DNA from: Halothece sp. PCC 7418
GTDB taxonomy: Bacteria > Cyanobacteriota > Cyanobacteriia > Cyanobacteriales > Rubidibacteraceae
Direction of reading: 5' to 3'
DNA: 64,000 bases
Assembly (NCBI RefSeq): GCF_000317635.1
Contig: NC_019779.1
Location: 1,550,001-1,614,000 of the forward strand
In this document: piece by piece, positions 1 to 16,778 of the stretch
Numbering within the stretch: the stretch's first letter is position 1
Layout of the letters: every line of letters starts with the position of its first letter
The notes under the pieces: generated by a model
What the model was told of the DNA's origin: nothing
Databases searched by the model: none
Seen by the model: the letters and a program-made list of their open reading frames with translations, nothing else
Program-made: the position numbers and the translations under genes

Positions 1-2
1 GT

Positions 3-569
3 TGGGAATCGGGTTTACCATCGATTCCAGAAGTAATTTCAGAGCGAAATTTAGATATTTGCTTGATGAAACAAGCTCGCAGACAAGTCCAAAGAAGCGG
101 TTATATCCAGTTTGAAAATATTATGTATAAAGGAGAATATCTTCAAGGATATGCAGGGAAAACAGTTAGTTTGAGATATAATCCCAGAGACATTACTACG
201 GTTTGGATTTATCAATATAATCGCTCTAAAGAAGAGTTTCTAACTCGCGCTCATGCTCAAGGATTAGAGACAGAACAGTTATCCTTGGATGAAGCAAAAG
301 CCAGTGCGAAAAAACTTAAAGAAAAAGGAAAAGCCTTAACTAACGAGTCTATCTTACAAGAATTTATTGAACGGGAAGCAACAGTTAAGAAGAAAACTCG
401 TAAGCAACGCCAAAAAGAAGAGCAAACTTATAAGCCAGTTCCCACTTTACCAAAACCTGAAGAAGAAGACTTAATAGAAACTCAGGAAGAGGAAACGAAT
501 TTAACTTCTGAAATCAATGACATTGAAGTTTGGGACTTAGAAGAAATGAAAAAGGATTATAGGTGGTAA
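3..569 (+). CDS. tnsB: TnsB transposase, C-terminal part (cut by window edge)
   Basis: The frame is open from position 3 with no stop upstream, so this is the 3' part of a longer gene. It would be the DDE-family transposase that joins CAST ends to target DNA. The visible part begins in the Mu-transposase-like C-terminal barrel (YKGEYLQGYAGKTVSLRYNP and a DITTVWIY strand), followed by a basic helical region and an acidic tail rich in EEE, which in V-K TnsB contacts TnsC. The catalytic DDE residues are outside the window. The stop TAA at 567-569 is two bases before the tnsC ATG, so the two genes are co-transcribed. The assignment rests on motif similarity and gene order. Confidence 0.9.
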   Translation, partial: WESGLPSIPEVISERNLDICLMKQARRQVQRSGYIQFENIMYKGEYLQGYAGKTVSLRYNPRDITTVWIYQYNRSKEEFLTRAHAQGLETEQLSLDEAKASAKKLKEKGKALTNESILQEFIEREATVKKKTRKQRQKEEQTYKPVPTLPKPEEEDLIETQEEETNLTSEINDIEVWDLEEMKKDYRW

Positions 570-571
570 TC

Positions 572-1408: not shown

Positions 1409-1911
1409 GTTTAGATACAAATCTCAAGCCTTGGTTATTTCAGGTTGAGCCGTTAGAGGGGGAGAGTTTAAGTCATTTTTCAGGTCGATTTCGACGGCGT
1501 AACCATTTAAGTTGTGCTGCTTTAGCAAATTTAGCAGGATTGGGGGGAGAAATCAATCGTTGGGAAAAGTTTCGTCATAATCCGTTCCCGTCTGATGCTG
1601 AGTTAACGGCTTTAGGTGAGTTAACAGGGGTAGATGCAACTCGCTTACGGTTAATGTTACCGCCACAGGGAGAGCCGATAAAAATGGAACCGATTCGCTT
1701 GTGTGGGGCTTGTTGTGGGGAGTCGCTTTATCATCGTTTAGAATGGCAGTTCCAGTCGGTTTGGAAGTGTGAAACCCATCAGTTAGCCTTGTTGTGTAAA
1801 TGTCCCCAATGCGAGAAACCCTTTAAGCGTCCTTCTTTGTGGGAGTTTGGTCGGTGTGATCGCTGTGGTTTATTCTTTTCTGCGATGGCGGACTATCAAA
1901 AGCCTGTTTAA
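1405..1911 (+). CDS. tniQ: TniQ, short V-K form
   Basis: This 168-aa TniQ family protein bridges Cas12k-bound target and TnsC. It shows the N-terminal TniQ block (EPLEGESLSHFSGRFRRRNH, then LANLAGLGG and RWEKFRHNPFP) and zinc-ribbon cysteines (CGACC, a CETH pair, CPQC, then CDRC). The size matches V-K TniQ and is about one third of TnsD/TniQ from Tn7 or I-F systems. The start overlaps the tnsC stop as ATGA, indicating translational coupling. A decayed second copy lies at 2404-2796. Confidence 0.95.
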   Translation: MSLDTNLKPWLFQVEPLEGESLSHFSGRFRRRNHLSCAALANLAGLGGEINRWEKFRHNPFPSDAELTALGELTGVDATRLRLMLPPQGEPIKMEPIRLCGACCGESLYHRLEWQFQSVWKCETHQLALLCKCPQCEKPFKRPSLWEFGRCDRCGLFFSAMADYQKPV

Positions 1912-2403: not shown

Positions 2404-2796
2404 ATGTTAGGTAAGGAGACTGGTCTGGGTGCGATCATCTCCCGTTGGGAAAAGTTTCGATTTAATCCACCGCCTTCGCAAAAAGAGTTATCCGCTCTCG
2501 CCAGTGTTGTGCAGGTGGATGTTTCTTGATTAAGAGAAATGTTACCACCCAAGGGCGTTGGAATGAAATTAGAGCGGACTCGCTTGTGTGGGGCGTGTTA
2601 TGGGAAAACTCCTTATCATAAGATTGAGTGGCAGTTGAAGACAACTGAGTTTTGCTCTGAGCATCGGTTAACGCTGTTGTCGGAATGCCCCAATTGTGGC
2701 GCAAGATTTAAGATTCCATCGCTTTGGGTTGATGGGTGGTGCGATCGCTGCTTTACGCCGTTTGAGAATATGTCTGAGTTTCAGAAATTAATCTGA
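2404..2796 (+). pseudogene. tniQ: Decayed second tniQ copy
   Basis: In the frame of 2401 the translation gives a truncated TniQ: GLGAIISRWEKFRFNPPP, SQKELSALASVV, an in-frame TGA at 2527-2529, then LREMLPPKGVG and the zinc-ribbon part (RLCGACYG, CSEHRL, CPNCGARF, CDRCF). It aligns with the intact tniQ at 1405 over most of its length but lacks the first 40 or so residues. An 85-residue frame from ATG 2539 could still express the zinc-ribbon half. The divergence from the intact copy suggests an older acquisition rather than a recent duplication. Confidence 0.85.
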
Positions 2797-4692
2797 ACTT
2801 AGTGAATTAGAAAAATTGGATGTTCGATAACCTTGATCGGGATGAGTAGCTTTTCCAGGATATCTTAACTGTAAAATCCCATTCTGAACCATTTTGGTCA
2901 AATAGCCTGTCCTTAAGGTATGAGGAGAGCGGTTTAATAATTGCGCCAATTGCTTTTGGGTTAAAAATTGATCTTGGCAAAGTTCCTGAATAGCTTGTTC
3001 CATCAACTCTCTGGGAACCTTACCTTTCTCTCTGATCGGTTGTGCAATGCTCATTAGTTTTGTCCAATGATCGGAGCTAAGCTCTAAATGATCGGAGCTA
3101 GGCTCTAAATGATCGGAGCTAGGCTCTAAATGATCGGAGCTAGGCTCTAAATGATCGGAGCTAGGCTCTAAATGATCAGAATAAGGTTGAATAGGTAAGA
3201 GATCAGTTTGACGTTGCTTGGGTAAACTGTAGTATGTACCTTTTCCCTGCCCTGATTTTTGTAGCCATCCGTTATTTGCAAGTTGCTTGAGACAATCACC
3301 AATATCTCTAGGATGTTGAGAACTGTACCATTGAATATCACGGTTGCTAACTTTTCCAAATTCATGAGCCAAGACTAAAGCGATTCGATCTAGCTCTTTT
3401 AATTGACAGTAATTATTGCCAACAATTTTCCGTAGCTCTTTCTCAACTTTTTCAGGAATGAGGCTAATCATTGGCAAAAAAACATGTGTCATCTCTAGAG
3501 ATAAATCCTCTTTTACCATTGGATATGCCCATTGCTGTTCTTGCCATGCTCTTAAAATTTTCGGAAAACCTGAGCCAGCTTTTTCGCCTAAACCAATCAT
3601 CTGAAACATTTTTTGTAAACTTGGGTTACGTGGCTCACTTAATCCACCTTCATAGAGTTTATCAATGGGAATTCTAAGACGACCCGGATTGGTAAACACA
3701 AACATATTTTTAAATTGCAGAATCTTTAAACCTCTTGTAGAAGAGTAATCAGCATGAATTAAACTATTTACTAAAGCTTCTCGCAATGCCTCATGAACAT
3801 GAGTTTCTCCTTGTCGAGTTGAATATTCATCCAATTGAAATGGAACATTCAAGTCATTTACTAATTTTCGATAAACACGATAGTAGAAATTTAATAAGTT
3901 TCCTTCCCATGTGCCATCTATATTAACTCGATCTGTCCAACGATCTTCTGGATTAGCAGAAAGTTTTTCTTGATAGTCTAGATCATAATAATTATAGGCT
4001 TCTAATATACTGTCTTCTTTCCCAAACATTAATAAGCCGGCAAGTGTTAAGCCTGCTTGACCTGTTTCTCGATCTCGCCTATAGCCACCTAATTTATAAA
4101 GTAGTTGTTGATCATCTAATGATAACCAAGGGTGATCAGGCTCTCTATTACTAAAGCGTTGACGATAAATTTTTATAGTCCCTCTATCAAGGTCATCTAA
4201 ATTGAAATTCTCTAAGATGTGGGAATCTTGAGCCTCTCTACTTGCATCCCGTAACATTTGGCGTACTTCATTTTCTGAGCAATGATAATCTCCCTCAAAG
4301 TTACGCTTATATGTTCCCGTCATCGGGTTGTTATTAATGTAAACGGGACGTTTAGACCTTTCTGCTGGAGGGACTTCTATTATGATGATATCTTTTTCTT
4401 CAAGCTGACAGATTCTAAAATTGGATTCTCCACAAATGGGAGAGCTTAGCTTTTGAGGATTATTATGACCATTAAAAAAATCTTTTTTTTGCTGGATTGG
4501 GTTCTTGACTCCAGTAACAATAAAACCCTGTTTTTTCTCTGATATCCCTAGAATAATATATCCTCCTTTGGTATTAGCAAAGGCAGAGATAGTTTCCCAA
4601 ATATCTTTAGATAATTTATCTTGAGAAGCCTTAAATTCTAGATCGCAGTCTTCATTAAGATGAAGTATGTCGGTGAGAGTTTCTAAGTTCAT
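2788..4692 (-). CDS. AlbA_2/Schlafen-like ATP-binding protein of the CAST cargo
   Basis: The 634-aa protein has an N-terminal AlbA_2 (divergent AAA_4, Schlafen-like) domain at about residues 15-130, with DLEFKAS, FANTKGGYIILGI and IIIEVPPAERSKRPVYI. A central region carries HEALREALVNSLIHADYS and TNPGRLRIP, typical of the GHKL-like C-terminal part of this family. The C-terminal tail contains winged-helix-like segments separated by a SSDHLEP repeat tract. Such proteins are common next to type I R-M genes and are thought to act in regulation or defence, but no reaction can be assigned. The gene follows hsdR on the same strand and its 3' end overlaps the tniQ remnant by 9 bp. Confidence 0.8.
   Translation of the reverse strand: MNLETLTDILHLNEDCDLEFKASQDKLSKDIWETISAFANTKGGYIILGISEKKQGFIVTGVKNPIQQKKDFFNGHNNPQKLSSPICGESNFRICQLEEKDIIIIEVPPAERSKRPVYINNNPMTGTYKRNFEGDYHCSENEVRQMLRDASREAQDSHILENFNLDDLDRGTIKIYRQRFSNREPDHPWLSLDDQQLLYKLGGYRRDRETGQAGLTLAGLLMFGKEDSILEAYNYYDLDYQEKLSANPEDRWTDRVNIDGTWEGNLLNFYYRVYRKLVNDLNVPFQLDEYSTRQGETHVHEALREALVNSLIHADYSSTRGLKILQFKNMFVFTNPGRLRIPIDKLYEGGLSEPRNPSLQKMFQMIGLGEKAGSGFPKILRAWQEQQWAYPMVKEDLSLEMTHVFLPMISLIPEKVEKELRKIVGNNYCQLKELDRIALVLAHEFGKVSNRDIQWYSSQHPRDIGDCLKQLANNGWLQKSGQGKGTYYSLPKQRQTDLLPIQPYSDHLEPSSDHLEPSSDHLEPSSDHLEPSSDHLELSSDHWTKLMSIAQPIREKGKVPRELMEQAIQELCQDQFLTQKQLAQLLNRSPHTLRTGYLTKMVQNGILQLRYPGKATHPDQGYRTSNFSNSLSSD
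3067..3174 (-). repeat. 21-bp in-frame tandem repeat encoding SSDHLEP
   Basis: About five copies of a 21-bp unit (ATGATCGGAGCTAGGCTCTAA on the plus strand) are arrayed without spacers. They lie inside the AlbA_2 gene and encode the heptapeptide SSDHLEP, with the last copies diverging (SSDHLEL, SSDHW). Because 21 is a multiple of 3, copy-number change would preserve the frame. The tract lies between two predicted winged-helix parts, so it probably acts as a flexible linker of variable length. Confidence 0.9.
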
Positions 4693-4749
4693 AAATAATC
4701 AATTTTGATATGTAAATGTATATTTTATGAAAATATTTAACGATCGCGC

Positions 4750-5769
4750 TTAGGCAGCATCTTGATAACAAGGAGAAGGAACTGTCTTATAAACTTGCAT
4801 GGCATGAAGGAAAATAACTTTTGTCTTATCTGCAATGTCTTCTTCTTCATAACTCTCTACAGGTAAACCCGTTTCTTCGTTGTAAAGAAAATCATAAATT
4901 TTGCCATTAATCCGATCGCGCGTTGATTCTTTCTCATACCATTGATCTAATTGGCTGATTTCTTCTTTTAATAATTGCAACAAGTTACTCGCCACTTGTT
5001 TAATATGTTTAAGTTCTGATTGTTCGAGATTTGGCTTTTTCAGTAAATCAAAAATAGCAAGGGCTTCTTCACTTAAGCCTTCACGGGTCGATCGCTGTTC
5101 TTCTTCGTTTAAGTCTTGGATAAAATTAAAGAGTTCTTCAAAGGTTTGTTCAATCGTTAAACGGTCTTTTTCTTGGTTATAATGATCGATGATTTCTTCA
5201 TAACGTCTTTGATAATCAATGCGGGAACTATTGCGATTAATCATCTGGCTGAGTCGGTTTTCAACCGCTTGTTTGAGATTTTGGACAGTAGTTCGCGGTT
5301 GAGAACTTTTGCGAAACTCTTCTTTAAGACGTTCAAAATTAATCTGACTGATATCATAAAGTTCGCCATCTTCTGTGTTGGTGTTCCTAACTTCAATGGT
5401 TTCGCCAACGGTTTGATACAGTTCCCTCAACACTTGATTAATGTCAGTAACTTGTTCGTCGGTTTCTAATTCCTTATCCAGTAATTTAATTGCATCATAG
5501 ACTTTACGATAGTCATTAATTCCAGTAATATTCGTACTTGCGGTGAACTTCCGAAAGACGTGGCGACATAAAATTCTAAAGCGTTTACGAGTTTCGCTAT
5601 CTTCATTAATCGCTTCTTTTGCCGTTATAATCGCAGCATTACGGGCAAAACCTGTTTCTTCTAGAATGGCATCTAAAGACGCATTTCGATCGCGCAAAAA
5701 TTCCCTTACTTCATCGATCGCGCTTTGTAATTCCTCTAAAAGATGTTCCTGTGACTTTGCAGGATTCAC
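4750..5769 (-). CDS. hsdR: HsdR C-terminal part, separated by frameshift
   Basis: This 339-aa frame is the C-terminal helical region of the type I restriction subunit. It contains long charged helices (about residues 120-290) and a conserved-looking tail (YEKESTRDRINGKIYDFLYN). It lacks a convincing start of its own, and the first codon GTG 5769 is merely the first start-like codon in the frame. The upstream reading in the same frame continues back to the T-run at 5876-5880 with a plausible HsdR sequence (NNGLIVDYCGILQNLREAL). Together with 5865-7958 it makes one HsdR of normal size, about 1070 aa. Confidence 0.85.
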   Translation of the reverse strand: MNPAKSQEHLLEELQSAIDEVREFLRDRNASLDAILEETGFARNAAIITAKEAINEDSETRKRFRILCRHVFRKFTASTNITGINDYRKVYDAIKLLDKELETDEQVTDINQVLRELYQTVGETIEVRNTNTEDGELYDISQINFERLKEEFRKSSQPRTTVQNLKQAVENRLSQMINRNSSRIDYQRRYEEIIDHYNQEKDRLTIEQTFEELFNFIQDLNEEEQRSTREGLSEEALAIFDLLKKPNLEQSELKHIKQVASNLLQLLKEEISQLDQWYEKESTRDRINGKIYDFLYNEETGLPVESYEEEDIADKTKVIFLHAMQVYKTVPSPCYQDAA

Positions 5770-5864
5770 TCTTTGATCCTCTTCTTCTCTTCCTTCATCT
5801 CCTGTTCCTGCAAATGTGGCGAGGGCTTCTCTTAAGTTTTGCAGAATCCCGCAATAATCAACAA

Positions 5865-7958
5865 TTAAACCGTTATTTTTCCTTCATAAACCCGATTCGC
5901 CCGTGCGATCGCTTGCATTAAAGTATGGGCTTTTAGCGGTTTATCGAGATAGAGTGTAGAAAGGCAGGGAACATCAAAACCAGTTAACCACATTGCACAA
6001 ACGATCGCGATCCGAAAGGGATGATTAGCATCCTTAAACGCCGTTTCGAGACTAATTAGTTTTCCGTCTGTGAGTTCAAATCCGTTATTAATGCGGTTAC
6101 GATGAAAGTTGAGTTCTTCTTCTAATCCCCACTCCCGAAACTTTTGCACTTCTCCCTGATCTTGACTGACGACAACAGAGGCGATGGTTTCTTCCATCCA
6201 TTCGATTTGACGTTGTTTGTAAACTGCTTCTTGTTGGTCGGTGATGCTGTTTAATTGTTGTTGGAGTCGGTTAATTTCCTCTTGCCAATAATGGGTTATT
6301 TTCTCATACATCCGCACACAAGTTATTTTGTCGATGCAGACAAACATCGCTTTTCCCATTTCCCAACCGTTGGCGTAATGTCTCACAAAATCCTGCGCGA
6401 TCGCGTCCAGTCTCGGTTCTGCTGTAATCACACCATAAGAACTCTTTAACGCTTGCTGAATGCGTCTCTCCACATCTCCCTCAACTTCTAATGCTTCGAG
6501 TTTTTCTGCGATGCGTTCATTAACATCATTAGTCGCAATTTCCAGTTTATCCCCTCGTGCGTCGTAATAAAGGGGAACAGTGGCGTTATCTTCCACCGCC
6601 CGTTGGAAGTCGTAAGTGGAGACATAATCCCCAAAATAACGGCTGGTGATTTCATCATTTTGGAAAAGAGGCGTTCCTGTAAACCCGATAAAGCTGGCGT
6701 TGGGTAAAGTGTTACGTTGATTTAATGCAAGGTTTCCATATTGGCTTCGGTGTGCTTCATCACTGATAATAATGATGTCATCTCGTTCATTGTAGGGTTC
6801 ATTGGGATCAACCGCTTGCTTAAACTTTTGGATCAGAGTGAAAATACAGGCTTTGCGTTCTTGCAGTAATTGTTTTAAGTTATTGGAACTGGTAGCGCGA
6901 CAAGGATCGCAATCGTTGTTTGCCAATCCACAGCCTGCAAAGGTATTATAAATTTGATTGTCGAGGTCTTCACGGTCAGTACAGACCACAAAGCTAAAGT
7001 TTCCGCCTAACTTGCGCCGAACTTTCCGCACAAAAAAGACCATCGAATAACTTTTTCCAGAGCCTTGAGTATGCCAAAATACTCCTAGTTTGCCTGCGAG
7101 TGCTTGACGGTTTTTTACAGCTTCGATCGCGTTATTGACTCCCAAATACTGATGATTGCGAGCGATAATTTTAACCGTCTCTTGGGAAGAATCATCAAAG
7201 AGAATAAAGTTTTCAAACAGATCAAGAAGATTATTTTCATTGCAGACTCCTTTGAGTAACGTTTCCATATTCACGACACCAGCATCGCTTTCTTGTAAGC
7301 GTTTCCAGTCTTGGAAGTATTCAAAGAGAGAACCAATTGTTCCCATCTTTGCATCATAGCCATTTCCGAAAACAACAATGGCATTGTAATAAAATAATTG
7401 AGGGATAGTTTCCAGATAATCTAGATAATTTTCCTCGTAAGCAGCGCGAAGGGAACGCCAAATGTTTTTTAATTCCATAAAAATTAGCGGAATCCCATTT
7501 ACAAAACAAACGAGATCGGCTCTTCTCAGGTATAATCTACCCTCGATCCAAAGTTCCCGCACTGCTAAAAAATGATTATTTGTGGGAGTCTCGAAATCAA
7601 AAACATTCAGAATTGGTTTAACGGTTTCCCCTTTTTCGTTGCGATAACTAACTTGTATTCCATCTCTGAGGAGGTTGTGTTTTTCTTGGTTAATCTTAGG
7701 TAAACTTTGGCTAACGCTATAATCGGTTAAAGTGCGAATTGCTTCTTGATAGGCTTCGTCGGGATGATTGGGATTCAATTCTCGCAGTTTTCTTTCTAAG
7801 TAGCGAGTGAGGATAATTTGTTTGCGATTTTCCCGTCCGAGAAGGCTATTCTCGCCATAGTCTTCTTGATTATAAGCGTAGATCGATTCCCATTTGAGTT
7901 CATCATGTAAATAGTTGGCGGTGGTGGTTTGAACGAGGGTTTCTTCGCTATAACTCAT
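5865..7958 (-). CDS. hsdR: HsdR type I restriction subunit, N-terminal and motor part (frameshifted)
   Basis: This is the ATP-dependent translocase/nuclease subunit of a type I R-M complex. The nuclease motif is ADLVCFVNGIPLIFMELKN (D...ExK, about residues 155-175). Motor motifs follow: Walker A HTQGSGKSYS (about 300), DEAH in IISDEAHRS (about 400), FTGTPLF and the late motif AIARANRVYEG. The frame stops right after that motif because of a one-base loss (A5 instead of A6 on the coding strand). The first codon overlaps the hsdS stop as ATGA. Restriction activity is probably lost unless slippage or sequencing error explains the shift. Confidence 0.92.
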   Translation of the reverse strand: MSYSEETLVQTTTANYLHDELKWESIYAYNQEDYGENSLLGRENRKQIILTRYLERKLRELNPNHPDEAYQEAIRTLTDYSVSQSLPKINQEKHNLLRDGIQVSYRNEKGETVKPILNVFDFETPTNNHFLAVRELWIEGRLYLRRADLVCFVNGIPLIFMELKNIWRSLRAAYEENYLDYLETIPQLFYYNAIVVFGNGYDAKMGTIGSLFEYFQDWKRLQESDAGVVNMETLLKGVCNENNLLDLFENFILFDDSSQETVKIIARNHQYLGVNNAIEAVKNRQALAGKLGVFWHTQGSGKSYSMVFFVRKVRRKLGGNFSFVVCTDREDLDNQIYNTFAGCGLANNDCDPCRATSSNNLKQLLQERKACIFTLIQKFKQAVDPNEPYNERDDIIIISDEAHRSQYGNLALNQRNTLPNASFIGFTGTPLFQNDEITSRYFGDYVSTYDFQRAVEDNATVPLYYDARGDKLEIATNDVNERIAEKLEALEVEGDVERRIQQALKSSYGVITAEPRLDAIAQDFVRHYANGWEMGKAMFVCIDKITCVRMYEKITHYWQEEINRLQQQLNSITDQQEAVYKQRQIEWMEETIASVVVSQDQGEVQKFREWGLEEELNFHRNRINNGFELTDGKLISLETAFKDANHPFRIAIVCAMWLTGFDVPCLSTLYLDKPLKAHTLMQAIARANRVYEGKITV
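5876..5880 (-). other. hsdR: Frameshift site in hsdR (five-base A run on the coding strand)
   Basis: On the minus strand the context is GAAGGAAAAATAACGG. As written, the frame reads GGA AAA ATA ACG GTT TAA. Adding one A gives GGA AAA AAT AAC GGT TTA and joins the two hsdR frames without a break. The deficit is therefore a single base in a short homopolymer. Confidence 0.85.
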
Positions 7959-9157
7959 ACGGTTATTTCTCCATTCATTAGACGTGGTAAAAGAAGATCA
8001 CGGGCTTGAGATAGTTTTTGATTTTGTTCTATAAGATTTTGAATTTGTGTAAAGCAAGCAGAAGCAAATTCATTAAACTGTGACATCAAAACTTGAGAAG
8101 GCAATCCAAGGTAAAACTCATTAAAACAGCTTTTTTGTACTCTTTGTCTTCCAGAAGAACCAATCATACTTTTAATCGCATTTTCTCTAAAATCGCGATC
8201 GCGTGATAAACAATAGGTAAAGTAAGGACTTACTTTTTTTCCTCTTAGGATCATAAATTCAGTAGAACCACAGGCGATTTCATCTTCTGCTAAACAATTA
8301 ACAAAAGCAGTTTTTCCATTTTCTAAACAGGGAGTGATACGAGCAAATAAAACATCGCTATTTCTAAATTTAGTAGTAGTGTGCCTATTTCTTCTTTCAA
8401 ACTCAGACATATTTAATGTCATACCAGTTTCTGATAAAGCACTCATTGGGATATACCAAACTTCTTTTTCTTTTTCTATAGTTTCTTTTGGGTTAATTTC
8501 GATTATTTCTGGCACACTAACTTTTTCCCAACCTTCAGGAATACCATCAATAATGGGAGAGTGTTCGTGACCAGGGAAGCGCAGATGAACAAACCATTCC
8601 CGATACAGCAGACGCGCCGACTCCTCTAATAACTCAATGCGACGGCGATTATTTTCGATTAAATCATCATATTTTGATAGAATATCTGCGATTTTATTCT
8701 GAGTTTTAATATCTGGAACTGGAAATTTGATAGAGAGTAATTTTGACTGACTTAAATTATCTTGCGCTGCTCCTTGTGTAAATAACTTATATCTTTTCTT
8801 TAGTAACGCATCAAAAAGATATTTTATGAACTTAACGTTTGCTTTTTCAGGATCAGGAGTAAAACCTATAATACTATCAGGGAAACAAGCATCTATTCCT
8901 AAAATTCCAGTTTCAGCAATATTAGCAGCGATCGTAATACAAAGAGTTCCAGCTTTCCATAGTTTACTTTGTGCCAGTCCAGCTTCACTATATGTTTGAG
9001 AATACTGAGTAATATAGAGATTTGAATGCTTTACATCTCCTGTTTGAATAAAGGGATATTTTCCACCATAAAGATGTTCAGCATCACGAGGTCTATGTCT
9101 TGATCTACCACGACCAACAATTCCAAGTTCATCTAATCTCTTTTCAGACTGCTTCAT
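7955..9157 (-). CDS. hsdS: HsdS type I specificity subunit
   Basis: This 400-aa protein selects the DNA sequence recognised by the type I complex. It has two target recognition domains separated by a conserved helical region (KIADILSKYDDLIENNRRR and LLYREWFVHLRFPG, residues about 160-200) and a second helical region at the end (LIEQNQKLSQARDLLLPRL). The first recognition domain starts almost at the N-terminus (GGKYPFIQTGDVK). The length is normal for HsdS. It overlaps both neighbours by ATGA (hsdR downstream, the DUF559 gene upstream). The two domains predict a bipartite target, which cannot be read from the sequence. Confidence 0.93.
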   Translation of the reverse strand: MKQSEKRLDELGIVGRGRSRHRPRDAEHLYGGKYPFIQTGDVKHSNLYITQYSQTYSEAGLAQSKLWKAGTLCITIAANIAETGILGIDACFPDSIIGFTPDPEKANVKFIKYLFDALLKKRYKLFTQGAAQDNLSQSKLLSIKFPVPDIKTQNKIADILSKYDDLIENNRRRIELLEESARLLYREWFVHLRFPGHEHSPIIDGIPEGWEKVSVPEIIEINPKETIEKEKEVWYIPMSALSETGMTLNMSEFERRNRHTTTKFRNSDVLFARITPCLENGKTAFVNCLAEDEIACGSTEFMILRGKKVSPYFTYCLSRDRDFRENAIKSMIGSSGRQRVQKSCFNEFYLGLPSQVLMSQFNEFASACFTQIQNLIEQNQKLSQARDLLLPRLMNGEITV

Positions 9158-9576
9158 ATTCCCAACACCTCCCGATCATTCTTATTCCCCCCTTCCGAAG
9201 GGGGGCTAGGGGGGATAAACCCCATAATCTCCTCACAAACCGCCTCAAACTCACGCAACACCTGATCATTCGTAAAGCGAACCACCCGCAAACCATACCC
9301 CTCTAAAACCTTCGTTCTTTCAGCATCATAAGCCATCCCATCTCGTGTAAAATGACCCTCACCATCAACCTCGATCACTAATTTTAATTTCGGACAATAA
9401 AAATCAACAATAAAATTATCAATGGGTTTTTGTCGCCACATTTTTAGAGGAAATGTTCTTAAAAATTGCCAGAGTTTTCGTTCGGCGGGGGTGGGATTTT
9501 TCCGCATTGCTTTGGCTTTTTCGGTTAGGTTTTCGTTGTAAGGTAGAAAGTATTTACCTTGTTTGATGTTGGACAT
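9154..9576 (-). CDS. DUF559 endonuclease-like protein inside the type I R-M operon
   Basis: This 140-aa protein has the Vsr-like DUF559 fold. Its marks are AERKLWQFLR, WRQKPIDNFIVDFYCPKLKLVIEVDGEGHF (the D...ExD core of this PD-(D/E)XK relative) and YGLRVVRFTNDQVL near the end. The C-terminal residues PPSPPSEGG are encoded by a copy of a G-run palindromic repeat that has landed in the gene. The role is unknown. Genes of this family often sit among R-M or recombination genes. It is translationally coupled to hsdS by ATGA. Confidence 0.85.
   Translation of the reverse strand: MSNIKQGKYFLPYNENLTEKAKAMRKNPTPAERKLWQFLRTFPLKMWRQKPIDNFIVDFYCPKLKLVIEVDGEGHFTRDGMAYDAERTKVLEGYGLRVVRFTNDQVLREFEAVCEEIMGFIPPSPPSEGGNKNDREVLGI
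9186..9215. repeat. G-run palindromic repeat copy inside the DUF559 gene
   Basis: CCCCCCTTCCGAAGGGGGG forms a hairpin followed by CTAGGGGGG. It supplies the PPSPPSEGG tail of the DUF559 protein. Related copies lie at 9600-9677, 10318-10363, 46818-46910 and 55393-55588. Confidence 0.75.
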
Positions 9577-9599
9577 TTTTACTTTTCTTTGGGTTGTTT

Positions 9600-9677
9600 A
9601 TCCCCCCTAACCTCCTCACTAAAGCTCCGGCTTTGAAAGGGGGGAATTTGGAAAGAGGGGAACTTTGAAAGGGGGGA
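9600..9677. repeat. G-run palindromic repeat copy between hsdM and DUF559
   Basis: The segment starts ATCCCCCCTAACCTCCTCAC, then AAAGCTCCGG and GAAAGGGGGG, with a second partial arm after it. It fills the gap between hsdM and the DUF559 gene. The hairpin may shape the polycistronic message. Confidence 0.75.
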
Positions 9678-9686
9678 CAAAGAGGA

Positions 9687-11798
9687 TTATATCCCCAACT
9701 CCTCAAAATTCTTTTCAATTTCTTTTGCTAAATTAACCGCCTCCTCATTCAAATCTTTTAACTCAACATGAATGCTTCTTAACGCCTCTTCAAAATCAAA
9801 ATCTTCTTCTTCCTCCTCTGGCGCAACTCCTACATAACGCCCAGGGGTTAAACTCCAATCATTCGCTTTTAACTCCTCCAAATCAACCAGTTTTACTAAC
9901 CCATCCACATCTTGTAATGTTCCTTCTGGAAACCGCACCATCAACCATTGTCCCTGTTGGAAGAAATAGCGAACTTGCTTTAATTGTTTTACAAATTCTT
10001 GACGGGAAGCATCAACATTTTTCAGAGAACTTTTAACCTTTTTTGTGTCCCAAACTTCGCTTTCCTTCGCCTTTAAGTTTTCCTCGCCATGTTCAACCAC
10101 ACGACCTGCTAATTTATAAACTAAATCTACTTGTTTAACTAAATCACGGCTGGTTTCCGCTAAGGCTTGCACTTGTTCAATAAAATTATTTAAGGCAGTC
10201 GCCTCTGCTTCGGGCGGTGTTAAATGACTTAAGAATTTATCCGTGAACTCATCACAATCACTTTTAAGCGTTTCGTATCCATTGCAAAATTCTGTCCATA
10301 TCTCTCCTAAATTGTTATCCCCCCTAGCCCTCCTCACTAAAGCTCCGGTTTGAAAGGGGGGGATTTGTGCTTGAAAGTGAGAAATTGCTTCTTGGAAATT
10401 CAGGAAAACATCAGCACAGGTTTTTCCTTCCTGCAACATCTGCTTAAAATAGCCTTGAACTAAACCCAGAAAGCGATCGGATTCTCCCCGATAAAGCCGA
10501 ACAATCGACACAAGATTCTTTAACTGTTCAGGGGAAAAATCGTAAATTCTCCGTGTGACTTGGCGGTAAACTTGACGCGCATCAATCATCAAGACTTTAT
10601 CCTGCATTGCTTCAGGTTTAGCGCGATTCAAAAACCATAACTCACAGGGAACCGATCGCGAATAGAAAAAGCCACCCCGAATTGCAATAATTAACTCCAC
10701 AGCCCCCGTTTTAATTAGGGCTTCTCTAACCTTTGCTTCATCACCCCCCGCACTGGAAGCCTGAGACGACATGACAAAGCCAGCCCGTCCTTGTTTGTTC
10801 AAATAACTATAAAAATAACTAATCCAGAGATAGTTTCCATTAGAAACCTTTTTATTCTTATTGACTCCAGGAAGACCAAACTTTAAACGGGAATCATTTT
10901 CTACCTTTTCCGCATCTACTTCGTCAACATTAAACGGCGGATTAGCCATGACATAATCAGCTTTTCCCGTCAAATTTAACGGATCATCATAATAAGTAAT
11001 TGCCTGTTGAATATTTCCTTCTAATCCATGAACCGCCAAATTCATCTTTGCCAAGCGAATGGTCGTCTGGTTCTTTTCCAATCCTCGAAACGTGATCTTG
11101 CCAAGACTTTTATTCGACTCTTCAACCAACTTCGCACTTTGAACAAACATCCCTCCCGACCCACAAGCAGGATCAAAAACAGTTCCCTCATCAGGTTCAA
11201 TCACATTCACAATAAGAGAAACTAAAGACAATGGCGTAAAGAACTCACCGCCATCATGGGCTTGCATATCAGCAAACTTCATCAAAAAATACTCATAAAT
11301 CCGTCCGAAAACGTCCCCTGAAACTTGCTTAGAACTTTCGGACTCTAACTGTTTTAACTCCTTTGGGTCTAGTAACCGCAAAAGCTGTCCTAGAACATCA
11401 TCTTCAATATTTTGGTATTCAGACTTGGGCAAAATTCCGCTTAACGTCTCATAATCCTTTTCAATGGACTCCATCGCCTGAAAAATAGCATTTGCCCGTT
11501 CATTCCCATCAGGTAAGGACACCAAATAATCAAACTGCGCCTCTGGCTTGAGGAATATCGCCCCTTTCTGGGAAAAATCTTCCTTTTTTAACGCCCTTGT
11601 TTTTCCGCTTCGTTTCGGTAAATCCTTCTCAATCTCCTTCTTCACCTGTAAAAAGCGACTGTAAGCATGACGCAGGAAAATTAGCCCCATCACAGGCAAA
11701 AAATATTCGTTACTCGCATAGTTAGAGTTTGATCGCAGTGTATCGGCTGCTGACCAGAGGTCTTTTTCAATTCCACTGATGTATTCAAATTGCGTCAT
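9687..11798 (-). CDS. hsdM: HsdM type I N6-adenine methyltransferase
   Basis: This is the modification subunit, giving N6-methyladenine with S-adenosylmethionine. An N-terminal HsdM helical domain (ISGIEKDLWSAADTLRSN) precedes the Rossmann methylase. Motif I is FDPACGSGGMF (about residue 205) and motif IV is ANPPF (about 290). The C-terminal part is long and coiled. The start MTQFEY at 11798 is preferred over 11810 because homologues begin near this point. A stretch of about 20 residues (IPPFQTGALVRRARGDNNLG) is encoded by an inserted G-run repeat at 10318-10363 in the poorly conserved C-terminal half. It is the first gene of the hsd operon. Confidence 0.93.
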   Translation of the reverse strand: MTQFEYISGIEKDLWSAADTLRSNSNYASNEYFLPVMGLIFLRHAYSRFLQVKKEIEKDLPKRSGKTRALKKEDFSQKGAIFLKPEAQFDYLVSLPDGNERANAIFQAMESIEKDYETLSGILPKSEYQNIEDDVLGQLLRLLDPKELKQLESESSKQVSGDVFGRIYEYFLMKFADMQAHDGGEFFTPLSLVSLIVNVIEPDEGTVFDPACGSGGMFVQSAKLVEESNKSLGKITFRGLEKNQTTIRLAKMNLAVHGLEGNIQQAITYYDDPLNLTGKADYVMANPPFNVDEVDAEKVENDSRLKFGLPGVNKNKKVSNGNYLWISYFYSYLNKQGRAGFVMSSQASSAGGDEAKVREALIKTGAVELIIAIRGGFFYSRSVPCELWFLNRAKPEAMQDKVLMIDARQVYRQVTRRIYDFSPEQLKNLVSIVRLYRGESDRFLGLVQGYFKQMLQEGKTCADVFLNFQEAISHFQAQIPPFQTGALVRRARGDNNLGEIWTEFCNGYETLKSDCDEFTDKFLSHLTPPEAEATALNNFIEQVQALAETSRDLVKQVDLVYKLAGRVVEHGEENLKAKESEVWDTKKVKSSLKNVDASRQEFVKQLKQVRYFFQQGQWLMVRFPEGTLQDVDGLVKLVDLEELKANDWSLTPGRYVGVAPEEEEEDFDFEEALRSIHVELKDLNEEAVNLAKEIEKNFEELGI
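10318..10363. repeat. G-run palindromic repeat copy inside hsdM
   Basis: The sequence runs from ATCCCCCCTAGCCCTCCTCAC through AAAGCTCCGG to GAAAGGGGGGG, near-identical to the intergenic copy at 9600. It lies in frame in hsdM, which stays open across it and gains about 20 residues. Confidence 0.75.
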
Positions 11799-11970
11799 GA
11801 GGAATCCCACCGAACTACAGTGAGTTTATTGTGCCATCTGATCAGGGTGTTTGTCTGGGTTTTTCCTTTTAATCATTGATTTCAGAAAAATTGCTGATCG
11901 CTAATTCACCATCAAAATCATCCTCTCTCAATAAAGCTGTACTGTTGGTGTAATCAACAAGATTATTTAG

Positions 11971-13899
11971 CTATAAAGTTTTAGATTGTTCGACAACTCG
12001 ACTGGCTCGCCCGACTCTTTGAAACATATTTTTTGGAGAAGACACCGCAGAAGCAATAAACAGAGTTTGACAATTCAAATCAATACCAGTCTCCATTTCT
12101 GCTGAGATAATACCAATGATAGGAGTTATCGGTTCTAGATTTTGAAATTGAGTTAATTTCTCTTCATTACAGTCCATCAGTGGAACAATATAATCGCGAC
12201 GACTCGCTAATTGCTGACGATTGAAAAGTTGCAATTTTTCAACCATTTTTTTACCGTGCTCTTCATTAGCACAAATGACAAGGGTTTTTCCGGGATTATC
12301 TTGGGCTTGGAGAAATTCACTAATATGTTGCGCGATCGCTGTGGTTCGCGATTCACTAACGAGCTTTTGTTGCCACTCGTGACTTTGATACGCTTCTGGA
12401 GGAACTGGAGAGGGGAAAGGATTATTCTGCATAGCTTGCCAATTTTCCAGATCAGAGCGTGCCTGAACCAGATGAATTTGATAGGGGGCAATAACTCCCT
12501 CTGCCATTCCCTGTTCGCGAGAATACTGATAAATTGGATCACCAAAGTAATCTTGAACCGCTACAAGATTATCAGCAGAAGCGGCAATCGCCAATCCAAT
12601 CTGAGAGGCAGAAGCAAAATACTCGGCAATTTCACGCCATACCCTCATGTCTTGCTCTTCGCATTCATCAACAAGAATGAAGTCAAAATAATCACGATTA
12701 TAGGCTTGGTATAAGTTTGGAAGCCAAGGATCACACTTCAAATCATCAGTTGTAGTAAAGTAAAGTTCTTGTCCTTTAATCACTTCACCTTGAATCTGAG
12801 CCATCTTATCTCTTGGAAAGAAGTTTATCGCCTGACTAATTAAATGAGCCAAGTAAATTTGACGATTGGCGAGAAATAAAATTTTGGGTGGACGTTTTTC
12901 CTCTTTAAGGTTCCAATTAATCTGGAAAAGGTACCAGCAAATTCGTAAAGCGACCTGAGTTGTCCCACTCTCTGTTGCTAAATTCAATAAAAGTCGTTTT
13001 TCTTGCTGCAAAATATTGATTAAAGCAGTCCGAATGGCAGCTTGTTGGTAATTATGAAGAGATTTCTCTCTCAGTTGCGGTGTTTCACTGCCCACGGTTA
13101 AACGATGCCAAAGTTCTTTCGGTGTGGGAAAATTTTTCATCGCTTCTGATTGCAGACTCGTGGTTAAATCATATTCCACAACGAATTTCCCATTGCTCGA
13201 ATAAGCGAACTTGACTCCTACCTGATTTGCCTTTTTTATGGCTTCTGAAAGTCCTTTATCAGGATTACGATATTTTCGTTTAGCCTCAATAACAGCAATT
13301 GGGACTTGACTTTCATAGAGCAGAATATAGTCAATCAATTGAGGTTTTTTTGATGACTTGTCTTTAACGAGGGAATCCCCCTTGATGAAATCATGAGGAG
13401 CGATTTTCCATCCTGCAAGTTCCAGTTTTTCCTCAATAATTTCCCCTAACGTTTTTACTCCTTGATTTCTTGTCTGATTCACTGTCGTTTTGATCTGCTG
13501 ATGAATTTGATGAAAGGAAAAGGGAGTGACAAGCCTATTTTCGTTTAGAAGCGCGATCGCGCGATCAGTATCAAATAACTCGATCTTAAAATCCGTGAAA
13601 TCCCGTTTCCAATGAAGCATCAATTTTTCTGTTGTCTCAGGATTTAGATAATCCCATTGTGCTTCTCGCAATTGTTCCAAGATCCAACTTGCAACATCAA
13701 ACGTAAACCCCATTGCTAGGCAATACTCCATTATGCCCAGTTCGATTAACTCCGAATGGGAGTAGTAAATACTACGTCCTGTTCCTGTAGCACTAATTGT
13801 CGGAACCACAACCTCTTTCTCTCGCCAATACTGTAATTGGCGAAGAGTGCACCCTGTAATTTGAGCTACTTCTTTACTTGTAAAAAAATCTTTTCTCAT
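11971..13899 (-). CDS. MerR/CvkR-type regulator fused to a degenerate HsdR-like nuclease/helicase
   Basis: Residues 1-80 are a MerR-type winged helix (FTSKEVAQITGCTLRQLQYW, SIYYSHSELIEL), and the gene is divergent from cas12k, where the CvkR repressor sits in V-K systems. From about residue 145 the 642-aa protein continues as an HsdR/EcoEI-like module. A D...EAK nuclease motif is kept (LIDYILLY, IAVIEAKRKY). The motor motifs are degraded: Walker A reads LATESGTTQ with no lysine, DECH reads DECEEQD, and the TATP motif reads IAASA. QRVGRASR near the end is kept, and the protein stops soon after. It is therefore likely a DNA-binding regulator with a dead motor. A truncated restriction enzyme is the alternative. 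Confidence 0.8.
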   Translation of the reverse strand: MRKDFFTSKEVAQITGCTLRQLQYWREKEVVVPTISATGTGRSIYYSHSELIELGIMEYCLAMGFTFDVASWILEQLREAQWDYLNPETTEKLMLHWKRDFTDFKIELFDTDRAIALLNENRLVTPFSFHQIHQQIKTTVNQTRNQGVKTLGEIIEEKLELAGWKIAPHDFIKGDSLVKDKSSKKPQLIDYILLYESQVPIAVIEAKRKYRNPDKGLSEAIKKANQVGVKFAYSSNGKFVVEYDLTTSLQSEAMKNFPTPKELWHRLTVGSETPQLREKSLHNYQQAAIRTALINILQQEKRLLLNLATESGTTQVALRICWYLFQINWNLKEEKRPPKILFLANRQIYLAHLISQAINFFPRDKMAQIQGEVIKGQELYFTTTDDLKCDPWLPNLYQAYNRDYFDFILVDECEEQDMRVWREIAEYFASASQIGLAIAASADNLVAVQDYFGDPIYQYSREQGMAEGVIAPYQIHLVQARSDLENWQAMQNNPFPSPVPPEAYQSHEWQQKLVSESRTTAIAQHISEFLQAQDNPGKTLVICANEEHGKKMVEKLQLFNRQQLASRRDYIVPLMDCNEEKLTQFQNLEPITPIIGIISAEMETGIDLNCQTLFIASAVSSPKNMFQRVGRASRVVEQSKTL

Positions 13900-13968: not shown

Positions 13969-15936
13969 ATGAGTCAAATAACGATTCAATGCCGTCTTGT
14001 TGCCAGCGCAGAAACTCGCCAGCACGTATGGGAATTGATGGCGGAACAAAACACACCGTTAGTTAACGAACTGCTCAAACAAGTAGCGGAACATCCTGAA
14101 TTTGAAACTTGGCAACAGAAAGGAAAACTCCCTGCGGGAATCGTTAGCAAACTCTGTAAGCCATTGAAAGAGGACTCTCGCTTCAGTGGTCAACCTGGAC
14201 GATTTTATACGAGCGCGACTAAGTTGGTGGAATATATTTATCAATCTTGGCTGGCTCTACAAAAACGCTTGCAATGGAGGCTCAACGGTCAAAAACGCTG
14301 GTTAGAGATTCTTAAAAGTGATCAAGAACTCTGTCAACAAGCAGACTGCTCGTTAGAAACACTTTGCCATAAAGCCAGCGAAATCCTTGCCTCTTTTCAG
14401 TCTTCTACAACTAAGAGCAAAAAGAAATCGAAAAAGCAAAAAAATAGTTCTCGGAAAAGTCTGTTTGATGCTTATGATAGTGCTGAAGATAGTTTAACTC
14501 GGAGCGCGATCGCGTACCTCCTTAAAAACAATTGTAAAATTCCCGAACAGCAAGAAGACCCTGAAAAATTCACTCAACGACGACGTAAAGCAGAAATCAA
14601 AGTTGAACGATTAACTCGGCAAATTGATAGCAGTTTACCCAAAGGACGAGACTTGACTGGAGAACGGTGGTTAGAAACCTTAATCACCGCAGCTAATAAA
14701 GTTCCTCAAAATATAGAGGAGTTCAAATCTTGGCAAAATATCTTACTCACTAAACCCAAATCTGTTCCCTTTCCCATTAGTTACGAAACCAATGAGGATT
14801 TAACTTGGAGTAAAAACGAAAAAGGTCGTCTTTGTGTTCGCTTTAGTGGCTTAAGTGACCATACTCTCCAAATTTATTGTGACCAAAGACAACTCAAGTG
14901 GTTTCAAAGATTTTACGAAGATCAGGAGACAAAACGAGCCAGCAAAAACCAGCATTCTAGTAGTTTATTTACTCTTCGTTCTGCACGTATTTTATGGCAA
15001 GAAGGCACAGCTAAAGGTCAGGCTTGGCATAGGAATTATCTTAGTCTTTACTGTACCGTTGATACTCGCTTATGGACAGCAGAAGGAACCGAACAAGTCA
15101 GACAGGAAAAAACTGATGAAATTACTAAAATTCTCACGAATATGGAGGAGAAAGGCGATTTAAGTCAAACCCAAGAAGCCTTTATTAAGCGTAAACAAAC
15201 AACGCTTGATAGATTGAATAATTCTTATCCTCGTCCTAGTAAACCTCTTTATCAAGGTCAATCTCATCTTCTTCTTGGGATTGCATTTGGATTAGAGAAA
15301 CCTGCTACGATCGCGATTGTGGATGGTACCACAGGAAAAGCAATCACTTATCGCAGTATCAAACAACTCCTTGGGGAAAACTATAAACTGCTCAACCGTC
15401 ATCGAAAACAGAAACAAGTTCAATCCCATCAACGGCATAAAAACCAGAAAAAGTTTGCCCCTAATCAGTTAAGAAATTCTGAGCTAGGAGAATATATTGA
15501 TCATTTAATTGCAAAAGCAATTGTTAACATTGCTCAAAAGTATAAAGTGGGAAGTATTGTTCTGCCTAAACTTGACAATATCCGTGAAGTTATTCAAAGC
15601 GAAGTTCAAATGCGAGCAGAACAAAAAATTCCTGGTGTTGTAGAGAAACAAAAGGAATATGCTAAACAGCATAGAATCCAAGTTCATCAATGGAGTTATA
15701 ACCGACTAATTGAAAGTATCAAAGCTAAAGCTAATCAAAAAGAAATCGTCATCGAACAAGCCAAGCAACCAAATAGAATCCAAGTTCATCAATGGAGTTA
15801 TAACCGACTAATTGAAAGTATCAAAGCTAAAGCTAATCAAAAAGAAATCGTCATCGAACAAGCCAAGCAACCAATTCGTGATAGCTCTCAAGAAGAGGCA
15901 AAAGAATTAGCTACAATAGCTTATAAGTCTCGTTAA
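13969..15936 (+). CDS. cas12k: Cas12k, RNA-guided target selector of the CAST
   Basis: This 655-aa protein is the nuclease-dead type V-K effector that directs transposition. It opens with the typical Cas12k N-terminus (SQITIQCRLVASAETRQ, LMAEQNTPLVNELL, GQPGRFYTSATKLVEYIYQSW). The RuvC-like part is in the C-terminal half (LLLGIAFGLEKPATIAIVDG, where the usual catalytic Asp is absent; YKVGSIVLPKLDNIRE). A perfect 34-residue tandem duplication (RIQVHQWSYNRLIESIKAKA and following) lies near the end. Without it the length would be about 621, close to known Cas12k. It is divergent from the MerR fusion gene and followed by the tracrRNA. Confidence 0.96.
   Translation: MSQITIQCRLVASAETRQHVWELMAEQNTPLVNELLKQVAEHPEFETWQQKGKLPAGIVSKLCKPLKEDSRFSGQPGRFYTSATKLVEYIYQSWLALQKRLQWRLNGQKRWLEILKSDQELCQQADCSLETLCHKASEILASFQSSTTKSKKKSKKQKNSSRKSLFDAYDSAEDSLTRSAIAYLLKNNCKIPEQQEDPEKFTQRRRKAEIKVERLTRQIDSSLPKGRDLTGERWLETLITAANKVPQNIEEFKSWQNILLTKPKSVPFPISYETNEDLTWSKNEKGRLCVRFSGLSDHTLQIYCDQRQLKWFQRFYEDQETKRASKNQHSSSLFTLRSARILWQEGTAKGQAWHRNYLSLYCTVDTRLWTAEGTEQVRQEKTDEITKILTNMEEKGDLSQTQEAFIKRKQTTLDRLNNSYPRPSKPLYQGQSHLLLGIAFGLEKPATIAIVDGTTGKAITYRSIKQLLGENYKLLNRHRKQKQVQSHQRHKNQKKFAPNQLRNSELGEYIDHLIAKAIVNIAQKYKVGSIVLPKLDNIREVIQSEVQMRAEQKIPGVVEKQKEYAKQHRIQVHQWSYNRLIESIKAKANQKEIVIEQAKQPNRIQVHQWSYNRLIESIKAKANQKEIVIEQAKQPIRDSSQEEAKELATIAYKSR
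15671..15874 (+). repeat. cas12k: Perfect 102-bp tandem duplication within cas12k
   Basis: Positions 15671-15772 and 15773-15874 are identical as read, with no spacer. The unit is 34 codons, so the frame is kept. It covers the segment of the RuvC-III-like region that in other Cas12k proteins occurs once. Perfect identity suggests a very recent event. Confidence 0.93.
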
Positions 15937-15981
15937 TTTTCTTAAAAAATGAACGGAAACTATTGTCATTTTCTGAACCTT

Positions 15982-15987
15982 TATAAT
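15982..15987 (+). promoter_or_regulatory. -10 element of the tracrRNA promoter
   Basis: TATAAT at 15982-15987 is preceded by TTGTCA at 15963-15968, but the 13-bp gap is too short for a normal -35/-10 pair. It is placed to start the tracrRNA at about 15994. The promoter assignment is inferred from position. Confidence 0.45.
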
Positions 15988-15994
15988 AAAATGT

Positions 15995-16280
15995 AATTAT
16001 TAAGTTAATCGCGCCGTAGCTTATGCTTAAATTTAAGCCTCTGAACTGCGAAAAATGTGGGTTAGTTTATCTGCTAGAAGTAGATGTGCTTTCTGACCCT
16101 AGTCGCTGTCCACCCTGATGCTGATCTTTACCTTTGAGTAGAGATGATTAACTCGTTAGAAGATAAAGTCCTGTACTTTTTATTCTACGAGGTCGGTGCG
16201 CTCCCAGCAAGATGGGGATAGATGTACTATAGTAATGGTTGCTGAATCACCTTCGAGCAAGAAGGAATCCGCTTTTGTAA
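15995..16280 (+). ncRNA. V-K CAST tracrRNA
   Basis: The sequence follows the published V-K tracrRNA pattern in order: GCGCCG, AAGCCTCTGAA, GGGTTAGTTT, GCTTTCTGACCC, CACCCTGATGCTG, GGTGCGCTCCCAGCAA, GGATAGATGTACT, TGGTTGCTGAATCACC, GAGCAAGAAGGAATCC. The anti-repeat AATCCGCTTT (16267-16276) pairs with AAAGTGGATT (16297-16306) of the first repeat, with one G-U pair. The 5' end is inferred from the -10 box. The 3' end is uncertain because the transcript may run straight into the repeat and spacer. Confidence 0.85.
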
Positions 16281-16368
16281 TGGAATTTTCTCCTTAAAGT
16301 GGATTGAAAGTCCGCAGTTCAAATCTGTTTGGTTGCGATAGAGTTCTTACCTTGAAGTGCATTGAAAA
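16274..16368 (+). CRISPR. Two-repeat V-K mini-array with a single homing spacer
   Basis: Repeat 1 is 16274-16310 and repeat 2 is 16332-16368, both 37 nt, matching at 26 of 37 positions (shared end GTGNATTGAAA). The 21-nt spacer at 16311-16331 begins TCCGCAGTTCAAATCTG, and these 17 nt match tRNA-Phe exactly. No further repeats are found before the transposon end. The first repeat overlaps the 3' end of the tracrRNA, so no separate leader exists. V-K arrays usually have 37-nt repeats ending GTTGAAAG, which supports the assignment. The divergence of both repeats suggests a dedicated homing guide rather than an adaptive array. Confidence 0.85.
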
Positions 16369-16438
16369 ACTCTGGTCTCTTTATCGTCACCTCAAGAGTT
16401 AACCTTTAATTCGTCAAGATGAATTTTAGATTTAGTAT

Positions 16439-16525
16439 CGACGACACTAATTTGTCACTAATGACACCAATTTGTCACCAACGACACTAATCTGTCACAG
16501 ATGACAAATAATTTGTCACTGTACA
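16439..16525 (-). repeat. Transposon end with four TnsB-binding sites
   Basis: Four units of about 20 bp lie head to tail at 16439-16458, 16459-16478, 16479-16498 and 16499-16519. Each carries TTTGTCAC or a close variant and GACA half-sites. They are followed by the terminal TGTACA at 16520-16525. Read from the outside, the end starts TGTACAGTGACAAATTATTT, as other V-K CAST ends do. This is the Cas12k-side end, closest to the target. Confidence 0.92.
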
Positions 16526-16530
16526 GGTAG
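16526..16530. other. Candidate 5-bp target-site duplication
   Basis: GGTAG directly abuts the transposon terminus. Tn7-like elements duplicate 5 bp. The other copy would be beyond the tnsB-side end, outside the window. Confidence 0.5.
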
Positions 16531-16548
16531 TTTTTAATACGCGAAAAA

Positions 16549-16621
16549 TGCCAGGACGCAGATTTGAACTGCGGACACGGGGATTTTCAGTCCCCTGCTC
16601 TACCAACTGAGCTATCCCGGC
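16549..16621 (-). tRNA. tRNA-Phe (GAA)
   Basis: The 73-nt gene reads GCCGGGATAGCTCAGTTGG at the 5' end. The acceptor pairs GCCGGGA with TCCTGGC (one G-U), the anticodon stem GGGGA/TCCCC encloses CTGAAAA with anticodon GAA, and the T arm is CGCAG/CTGCG with loop TTCAAAT. CCA is not encoded. It is the chromosomal homing target of the CAST and is not damaged by the insertion, which lies 23 bp past its 3' end. Confidence 0.98.
16559..16578 (-). other. Protospacer and PAM of the CAST homing guide within tRNA-Phe
   Basis: The 17-nt protospacer (16559-16575, minus strand) covers the variable-loop end and most of the T arm. The three bases 5' of it on the minus strand are GTG (16576-16578), which fits the GTN PAM known for Cas12k. 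From the PAM edge to the transposon end is 50 bp, within the roughly 50-66 bp reported for V-K elements. Confidence 0.88.
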
Positions 16622-16778
16622 AATTTGTGTTTGGGTTTGGCGCTTTTTTCTCAAGCGCTTTATTAATATAGCAAATCATTTTTGCGCTGACAAGTGCTGA
16701 GAGAAAATTTATTTCGCACTCGTTTCGCGTTACATTAGATGAGAAAATCGAAACGTTTGGTATCCTTTCCCACGATTT

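Follow-up and report, generated by a model that had tools for sequence, protein, structure and literature searches.

How a transposon comes to lie with one end against a tRNA-Phe gene, and which RNA led it there, is the question raised by a locus of Halothece sp. PCC 7418 in which a tracrRNA, a truncated repeat (R*) and a tRNA-matching stretch follow one another in close succession. Unless genome coordinates are given, positions are those of the window, i.e., the whole stretch of 64,000 nt that was analysed (Table 1). Our best explanation, to which we give a probability of roughly 0.74, is that the homing guide of this type V-K CAST would be a natural single guide fused to its tracrRNA, the CRISPR array having been lost by recombination.

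Table 1. Features of the locus, with window positions and the basis of each call
Feature	Position	Strand	Basis or remark
tnsB, 3' part	1..569	+	ORF start lies upstream of the window
tnsC	563..1408	+	TniB domain; TnsC 7m99, E 5.6e-109
tniQ	1405..1911	+	Domain match; TniQ 7n6i, E 7e-64
Cargo: Schlafen/AlbA_2 protein, HsdM, HsdS, two ORFs read as HsdR by eye	2788..11810	-	
CvkR-HsdR type regulator, divergent from cas12k	11971..13899	-	MerR domain and ResIII
cas12k, 655 aa	13969..15936	+	phmmer to Cas12k 7n3o, E 1.3e-247
Exact 102-nt in-frame tandem duplication near the cas12k 3' end	15671..15874	+	Repeat search
Promoter-like TTGTCA-18-TAAAAT, upstream of tracrRNA	15963..15992	+	Weak
tracrRNA, only copy found; its 3' end is the anti-repeat	16005..16275	+	Profile match; ends approximate
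Hairpin, tracrRNA 3' end (16266-16275) to R* (16296-16305)	16266..16305	+	10 bp, folding
Truncated repeat R* (AGTGGATTGAAAG)	16298..16310	+	Position and TTGAAAG ending same as in relatives
17-nt anchor (homing) spacer TCCGCAGTTCAAATCTG	16311..16327	+	17/17 to tRNA-Phe, GTG PAM
Left end of the transposon	16430..16525	+	Repeats spaced about 20 nt; ends in TGTACA (16520-16525)
tRNA-Phe (GAA), attachment site	16548..16622	-	ARAGORN; Rfam RF00005
Protospacer inside tRNA-Phe	16559..16575	-	GTG PAM is the complement of 16576-16578

The homing guide and its tRNA target

Judged from its sequence, the element is a type V-K CAST some 17.8 kb long (genome 1548707-1566525), because it combines cas12k, TnsB, TnsC and TniQ with a MerR-HsdR type regulator and paired TGTACA ends. 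The right end corresponds to genome position 1548707 (L004 8707, window -1293) and the left end to window position 16525; compared by eye, the first 17 nt are common to both TGTACA ends. The interval from the right end to the tnsB ORF, the one stretch searched that is relevant to TnsA, holds no ORF of at least 70 aa. In the regulator, the HSDR_N and Helicase_C matches are weaker and fall under curated cut-offs; four CvkR-hsdR fusions have been reported (PMC9938897).

In the published plan, V-K elements place their left end beside a tRNA gene pointing at the element and carry an R* of about 12 nt, a 17-nt anchor and a GTN PAM, with 46-82 nt from PAM to left end and one exception at 147 (PMC9938897). 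The same arrangement is present in the window, where R* and a 17-nt spacer are directed at the tRNA gene just beyond the left end, with a GTG PAM and 50 nt between PAM and left end. The original prediction had read 16311-16327 as the exact reverse complement of 16559-16575, and direct reading of the sequence bears this out; the predicted PAM is likewise found, CAC at 16576-16578 giving GTG on the tRNA strand immediately 5' of the protospacer, and so is the 50-bp spacing, as TGTACA ends at 16525 and 50 bases (16526-16575) lie between left end and PAM. The further idea of a 21-nt spacer of reduced complementarity proved baseless: published anchor spacers are usually 17 nt long (PMC9938897), so that 17/17 is a full-length match. 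A repeat search of the window returned the spacer/tRNA pair as an 18-nt perfect inverted repeat. In the 4,179,170-bp genome, exact copies of TCCGCAGTTCAAATCTG number two, the guide and the tRNA; with up to 3 mismatches it occurs at 10 places, the next best after the two exact copies having 2 mismatches.

Taken with R*, the PAM and the distance to the left end, the 17/17 anchor strongly supports reading 16311-16327 as a homing guide, and this homing part, an anchor spacer behind R* in a type V-K CAST, is already published. One might argue that a sequence that is no guide happens to resemble the tRNA, and the decayed state of the element, nothing more, would suit such a view; it is hardly credible, since the match is complete and has the right PAM, strand and spacing (by simple arithmetic, about 2e-10 are expected for 17/17 plus a GTN PAM within about 60 offsets), and since the layout recurs in relatives at different tRNAs. 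Downstream of the guide, a second R*-like motif, GTGCATTGAAAA, lies at 16357-16368; the 17 nt that follow it have no recognisable target in the window and a 16-kb upstream piece, the best non-self match having 3 mismatches.

Cas12k matches occur in 123 of 388 genomes of the order. From these, 41 relatives were chosen by hand, most of them high-ranking Cas12k matches, and the stretch downstream of cas12k was taken (L099, L119 and L125 being shortened by contig ends); a separate Cas12k scan of genome contigs, concerning 4 relatives, was set aside. Of the 42 elements, window included, 33 have an R*-like repeat and, directly behind it, 17 nt that match a GTN-PAM site further downstream with at most 2 mismatches; 17 of these anchors are exact and 30 of the 33 sites fall on an ARAGORN-called tRNA. 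The same-genus element in G012 (Cas12k 85%) has a different spacer, which targets tRNA-Thr, and an element in G006 sits at tRNA-Phe as well and targets another portion of the tRNA (1 mismatch); the guides thus differ, each following its own tRNA.

The far end of the element tells a less tidy story. A 5-bp target-site duplication is a feature of Tn7 relatives (PMC11406308), and a second GGTAG had been expected at the right end; it is absent, AATGT flanking that end instead. The duplication was presumably lost through later rearrangement, and a rearrangement at the right end is likely. Among relatives, a crude search with a poor right-end detector, given no weight here, yielded right-end candidates in 5 of 20 elements and no matching pair. 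In the proposed comparison with empty sites, the tRNA-Phe/DUF3038 side is kept in four same-genus genomes (G132, G082, G040 and G012), but an exact empty site could not be delimited. None of five tested genes from the window's left flank occurs in the stretch fetched beside tRNA-Phe in these four genomes, the ORF lists there covering two of them, and no tRNA was called in the pieces fetched from G145 and G063. The lack of a matching duplication and the absence of the left-flank genes from these stretches would suit an element that came to lie beside tRNA-Phe through recombination or deletion, its spacer match being a relic of another event. We regard this as improbable, since protospacer, GTG PAM and 50-bp spacing follow the published left-end arrangement and since the closest relative, at tRNA-Thr and with a spacer of its own, shows this geometry too (46 bp). 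That this spacer placed the element at tRNA-Phe, as originally proposed, agrees with the match, the PAM and the spacing and is at odds with the want of a matching 5-bp duplication; it is what we would best infer.

A tracrRNA joined to the homing repeat

As in type V-K CAST generally, the tracrRNA is located after cas12k; its profile match runs over 16007-16270 (E 3.6e-53, the window sequence being itself part of the profile), and Rfam at gathering score returned two tRNAs only and no tracrRNA family. Positions 16266-16275 (AAUCCGCUUU) pair with 16296-16305 (AAAGUGGAUU), which overlap R*, and the spacer begins five bases on. This joining hairpin has a z score of -2.34, 6 of 200 shuffles being equally stable. 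Promoter-like matches in the region number 2, against 1.6 expected. A repeat scan of the stretch between cas12k and the left end found no CRISPR array, and both repeat copies that it lists for the window fall within the cas12k duplication. The separation of R* from the array, a usual and non-strict V-K trait, is thus not seen in the window, where 40 nt lie between tracrRNA end and spacer.

In an engineered ShCAST single-guide RNA, the tracrRNA is joined to the repeat through a short loop and the spacer follows. The succession of tracrRNA, R* and spacer in the window seems to form a natural single-guide RNA of like layout, encoded in the genome, whereas the engineered one is man-made. In the mechanism that we propose, a single transcript would contain the tracrRNA, the anti-repeat/R* hairpin and the 17 nt matching tRNA-Phe, the homing guide being in effect the 3' tail of the tracrRNA. 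Cas12k carrying this RNA would bind tRNA-Phe beside the GTG PAM, and TniQ, TnsC and TnsB would then carry out the insertion about 50 bp past the PAM, with the left end of the element leading. Transcription as one RNA, loading onto Cas12k, insertion left end first and the past transposition itself are steps that we infer.

A more conventional reading has to be weighed here, namely that the window holds an ordinary V-K anchor whose separate crRNA pairs with the tracrRNA in trans, the closeness of tracrRNA and R* being a functionless by-product of array deletion. One tracrRNA and no array were found in the window stretch, and a tracrRNA-R* duplex after processing is possible. In the 33 elements having both an anchor and a tracrRNA, the gap from tracrRNA end to spacer is 18, 29, 31, 40 (window) or 80 nt in five and 211 to 3287 nt in the other 28, and the tracrRNA still pairs with such a distant R* in the 22 elements tested. 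We consider this reading unlikely, for reasons that come from the relatives. The 80-nt gap belongs to L115 (genome G321), where R* with a tRNA-Val anchor stands between tracrRNA and CRISPR array and not after the array; this is an intermediate layout.

Fused units and paired tracrRNAs in relatives

The pattern GCRCTCYCAGCAAN{55,85}WTGAAAG occurs at 16 places in 13 of the 388 genomes (reversed-pattern control, 0), a lower bound, as the window's own gap falls outside the pattern range; 4 of the 16 places are elements already among the relatives examined above. A Cas12k match is present in 12 of these 13 genomes and missing in G145. Downstream of the fused unit, 13 of the 16 places have a target with at most 2 mismatches in 17 and a GTN PAM (5 exact), and for the remaining 3 none was found within 1.4 kb; 12 of the 13 targets lie on an ARAGORN-called tRNA (Leu, Arg, Ser, Thr, Val or Asp). 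From TGTACA to the PAM, 46-64 nt were counted in 10 of the 13 targeted loci and 114 in one, TGTACA being not found in two.

At 9 of the 16 loci, one of them (L170) cut, the fetched stretch contains two tracrRNA copies, the fused unit being the second. In G012, for instance, the order is tracrRNA 1, three repeats, tracrRNA 2, R* and spacer, and second copies are present also in G024, G013 and G083. It seems reasonable to argue that in such relatives the first copy would serve the CRISPR array and the second, beside R*, the homing guide. A functionless by-product of array deletion, as the ordinary-anchor reading has it, is hard to reconcile with fused units that recur in 13 of 388 genomes and with a fused tracrRNA that is an extra copy beside the first at 9 of 16 loci.

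Two fused loci deserve a word of their own. In L164 (contig C9 of G145, 1280-1683, minus strand), TGTACA ends enclose 404 bp whose only contents are the 3' portion of a tracrRNA, R* and a 17-nt spacer; the genome gave no match to Cas12k, and the fetched piece had no tRNA called. The locus may be read either as a guide-only mini-element or as a deletion relic. At L171 (G183, around 3703211), sequence reading suggests that only the start of cas12k is left; the fused guide is kept, as is its tRNA-Asp target, and might serve a Cas12k in trans.

For the pairing between tracrRNA ends and R*, the test on which we rely compares own with swapped stems, with arms cut at fixed length, at three arm lengths and over 10 or 11 distinct stems; own pairs beat swapped ones with permutation p values of 0.00135, 0.00025 and 0.0007. 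The window has the clearest stem (-8.2 to -9.8 with its own R*, swapped partners averaging -0.3 to -0.6) and its own R* is the top partner in every version. The signal is carried by the window, L163/L164, L157/L170/L172, L158-L161 and L171; it is modest in L167 and weak or absent in L162/L166, L165, L168 and L169. This weak pairing in several fused loci favours an ordinary anchor, against which own stems outdo swapped ones overall. In L162 and L166 a 7-bp stem lies slightly further upstream. Two earlier versions of the test were discounted, the first as the arms overlapped in short hairpins, and the second (p 0.00015) as they had been cut by eye from folds, which favours pairing.

The elements with two tracrRNAs allow a further comparison. 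In 22 single-tracr elements, a group that omits the window, L096, L118, L133, L136, L115 and L124 and, out of 33, L114, L129, L130, L131 and L135, in which no anti-repeat was recognised, the median energy of pairing between the tracrRNA anti-repeat and the distant R* is -12.4 kcal/mol. For the two-tracr group, 8 elements after L170 was dropped for want of a recognised anti-repeat, the median is -3.95 for tracrRNA 1 with R* and -6.4 for tracrRNA 2 with R*, tracrRNA 1 differing from the single-tracr group with p 2e-5; copy 2 has no advantage over copy 1 in pairing with R* in three of them, L162, L166 and L169. TracrRNA 1 prefers the array over R* in all 7 two-tracr elements with a usable array repeat, and tracrRNA 2 prefers R* over the array in 5 of the 7, with overlapping arms for the tracrRNA 2/R* pairs of L158-L161; copy 2 of L166 and L169 pairs with the array equally well. 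The poor pairing of copy 1 with R* suggests that in these two-tracr elements R* has diverged from the array tracrRNA, as would suit a tracrRNA reserved for homing, and it speaks against an ordinary anchor in trans. As a separate observation, in 14 of 17 single-tracr elements the tracrRNA segment by the last hairpin prefers the homing R* over array repeats (2 equal, 1 worse; Wilcoxon p 0.008), only the last 13 nt of the array repeats having been compared.

A putative hybrid tracrRNA, known systems and state of the element

Aligned with the two G012 copies, the window tracrRNA shifts over 44 informative ungapped sites from copy-1-like to copy-2-like, with a max-chi2 permutation p of 0.0039 that treats sites as independent and uses one relative. 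In trees split at the breakpoint picked by that test, and without support values, the 5' half of the window tracrRNA groups with G012 copy 1, and its 3' half falls with G012 copy 2 and the tracrRNA copy of G145; this analysis left out hits under about 150 nt and the L124 tracrRNA, which is broken, and used loci shared between sets once. The window tracrRNA looks like a recombinant of two copies, and the simplest reading is that recombination between two tracrRNAs removed the array and left a homing-only guide.

It is tempting to hypothesize, more generally, that in a subset of V-K CASTs the tracrRNA was duplicated onto R* to give a homing-only natural single guide, that array and homing guides there use separate tracrRNAs, copy 1 no longer fitting the homing R*, and that the copies recombine to yield homing-only elements; this wider proposal could as well turn out wrong as right. 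If true, it would provide a mechanism that sorts homing guides from array guides. A second tracrRNA on the homing repeat suggests one possible route by which delocalized crRNAs originated, and the window suggests how an element turns homing-only. Two-tracr elements would offer natural tracrRNA pairs for probing how Cas12k sorts its guides, and fused units would be natural scaffolds for single-guide CAST tools.

The natural single-guide RNA of Cas9, tracr-L, was reportedly described by Workman 2021 (cited in PMC11417352), and Saito 2021 and Hsieh and Peters 2021 are cited for the anchor spacer, or delocalized crRNA, of V-K CAST. The Cas9 RNA (L-tracrRNA), as presented in PMC8730458, is likewise a natural tracrRNA form with a targeting stretch; tracr-L represses the cas operon of type II-A systems, whereas the window guide would direct Cas12k transposition. 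With the V-K anchor, as treated in sections of PMC9938897, PMC11656645, PMC11406308 and PMC12719977, the window shares R*, the 17-nt tRNA spacer, the GTN PAM, a left end 46-82 nt away and homing without the array. These sections describe a single R*, usually clearly apart from the array, and one tracrRNA, whereas in the window the tracrRNA adjoins R* and is linked to it by a hairpin, and in relatives the fused tracrRNA is often a second copy. Array-less CASTs with only a delocalized crRNA likewise have no array and a homing guide alone; the passages devoted to them in PMC11656645 give no fusion, second tracrRNA or route, whereas the window suggests tracrRNA recombination. None of the literature matches listed describes a Cas12k with a natural single guide or a second tracrRNA, and the word tracrRNA is absent from the main text of a 2024 review of guide-directed transposition (PMC11406308). 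The novelty would accordingly reside in the tracrRNA-fused variant of the V-K anchor guide, of which an earlier description, e.g., in the 2021 papers or preprints, is possible.

The present copy of the element is probably immobile, as its TnsB is without N-terminus and its Cas12k has a 34-aa tandem duplication. The tnsB ORF begins at a point corresponding to ShTnsB residue 129; upstream of it, about 55 further codons continue the open frame and its similarity but include no common start codon, and this copy lacks about 65 codons with which the genes of relatives begin. The solved Cas12k aligns without any duplication. The window element is thus probably a relic, fixed in place, whose guide still looks intact. 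Read by eye, hsdR is apparently split into two ORFs of 697 and 339 aa (4750-7958, minus strand). At 2135-2210 and 2443-2796, what is left of another tniQ-like ORF and of a MerR-like start (80% to 13816-13891) suggests an older duplicated or nested element. Finally, the Schlafen-like cargo gene contains, at 3066-3201, five copies of a 52-nt repeat spaced by 21 nt.
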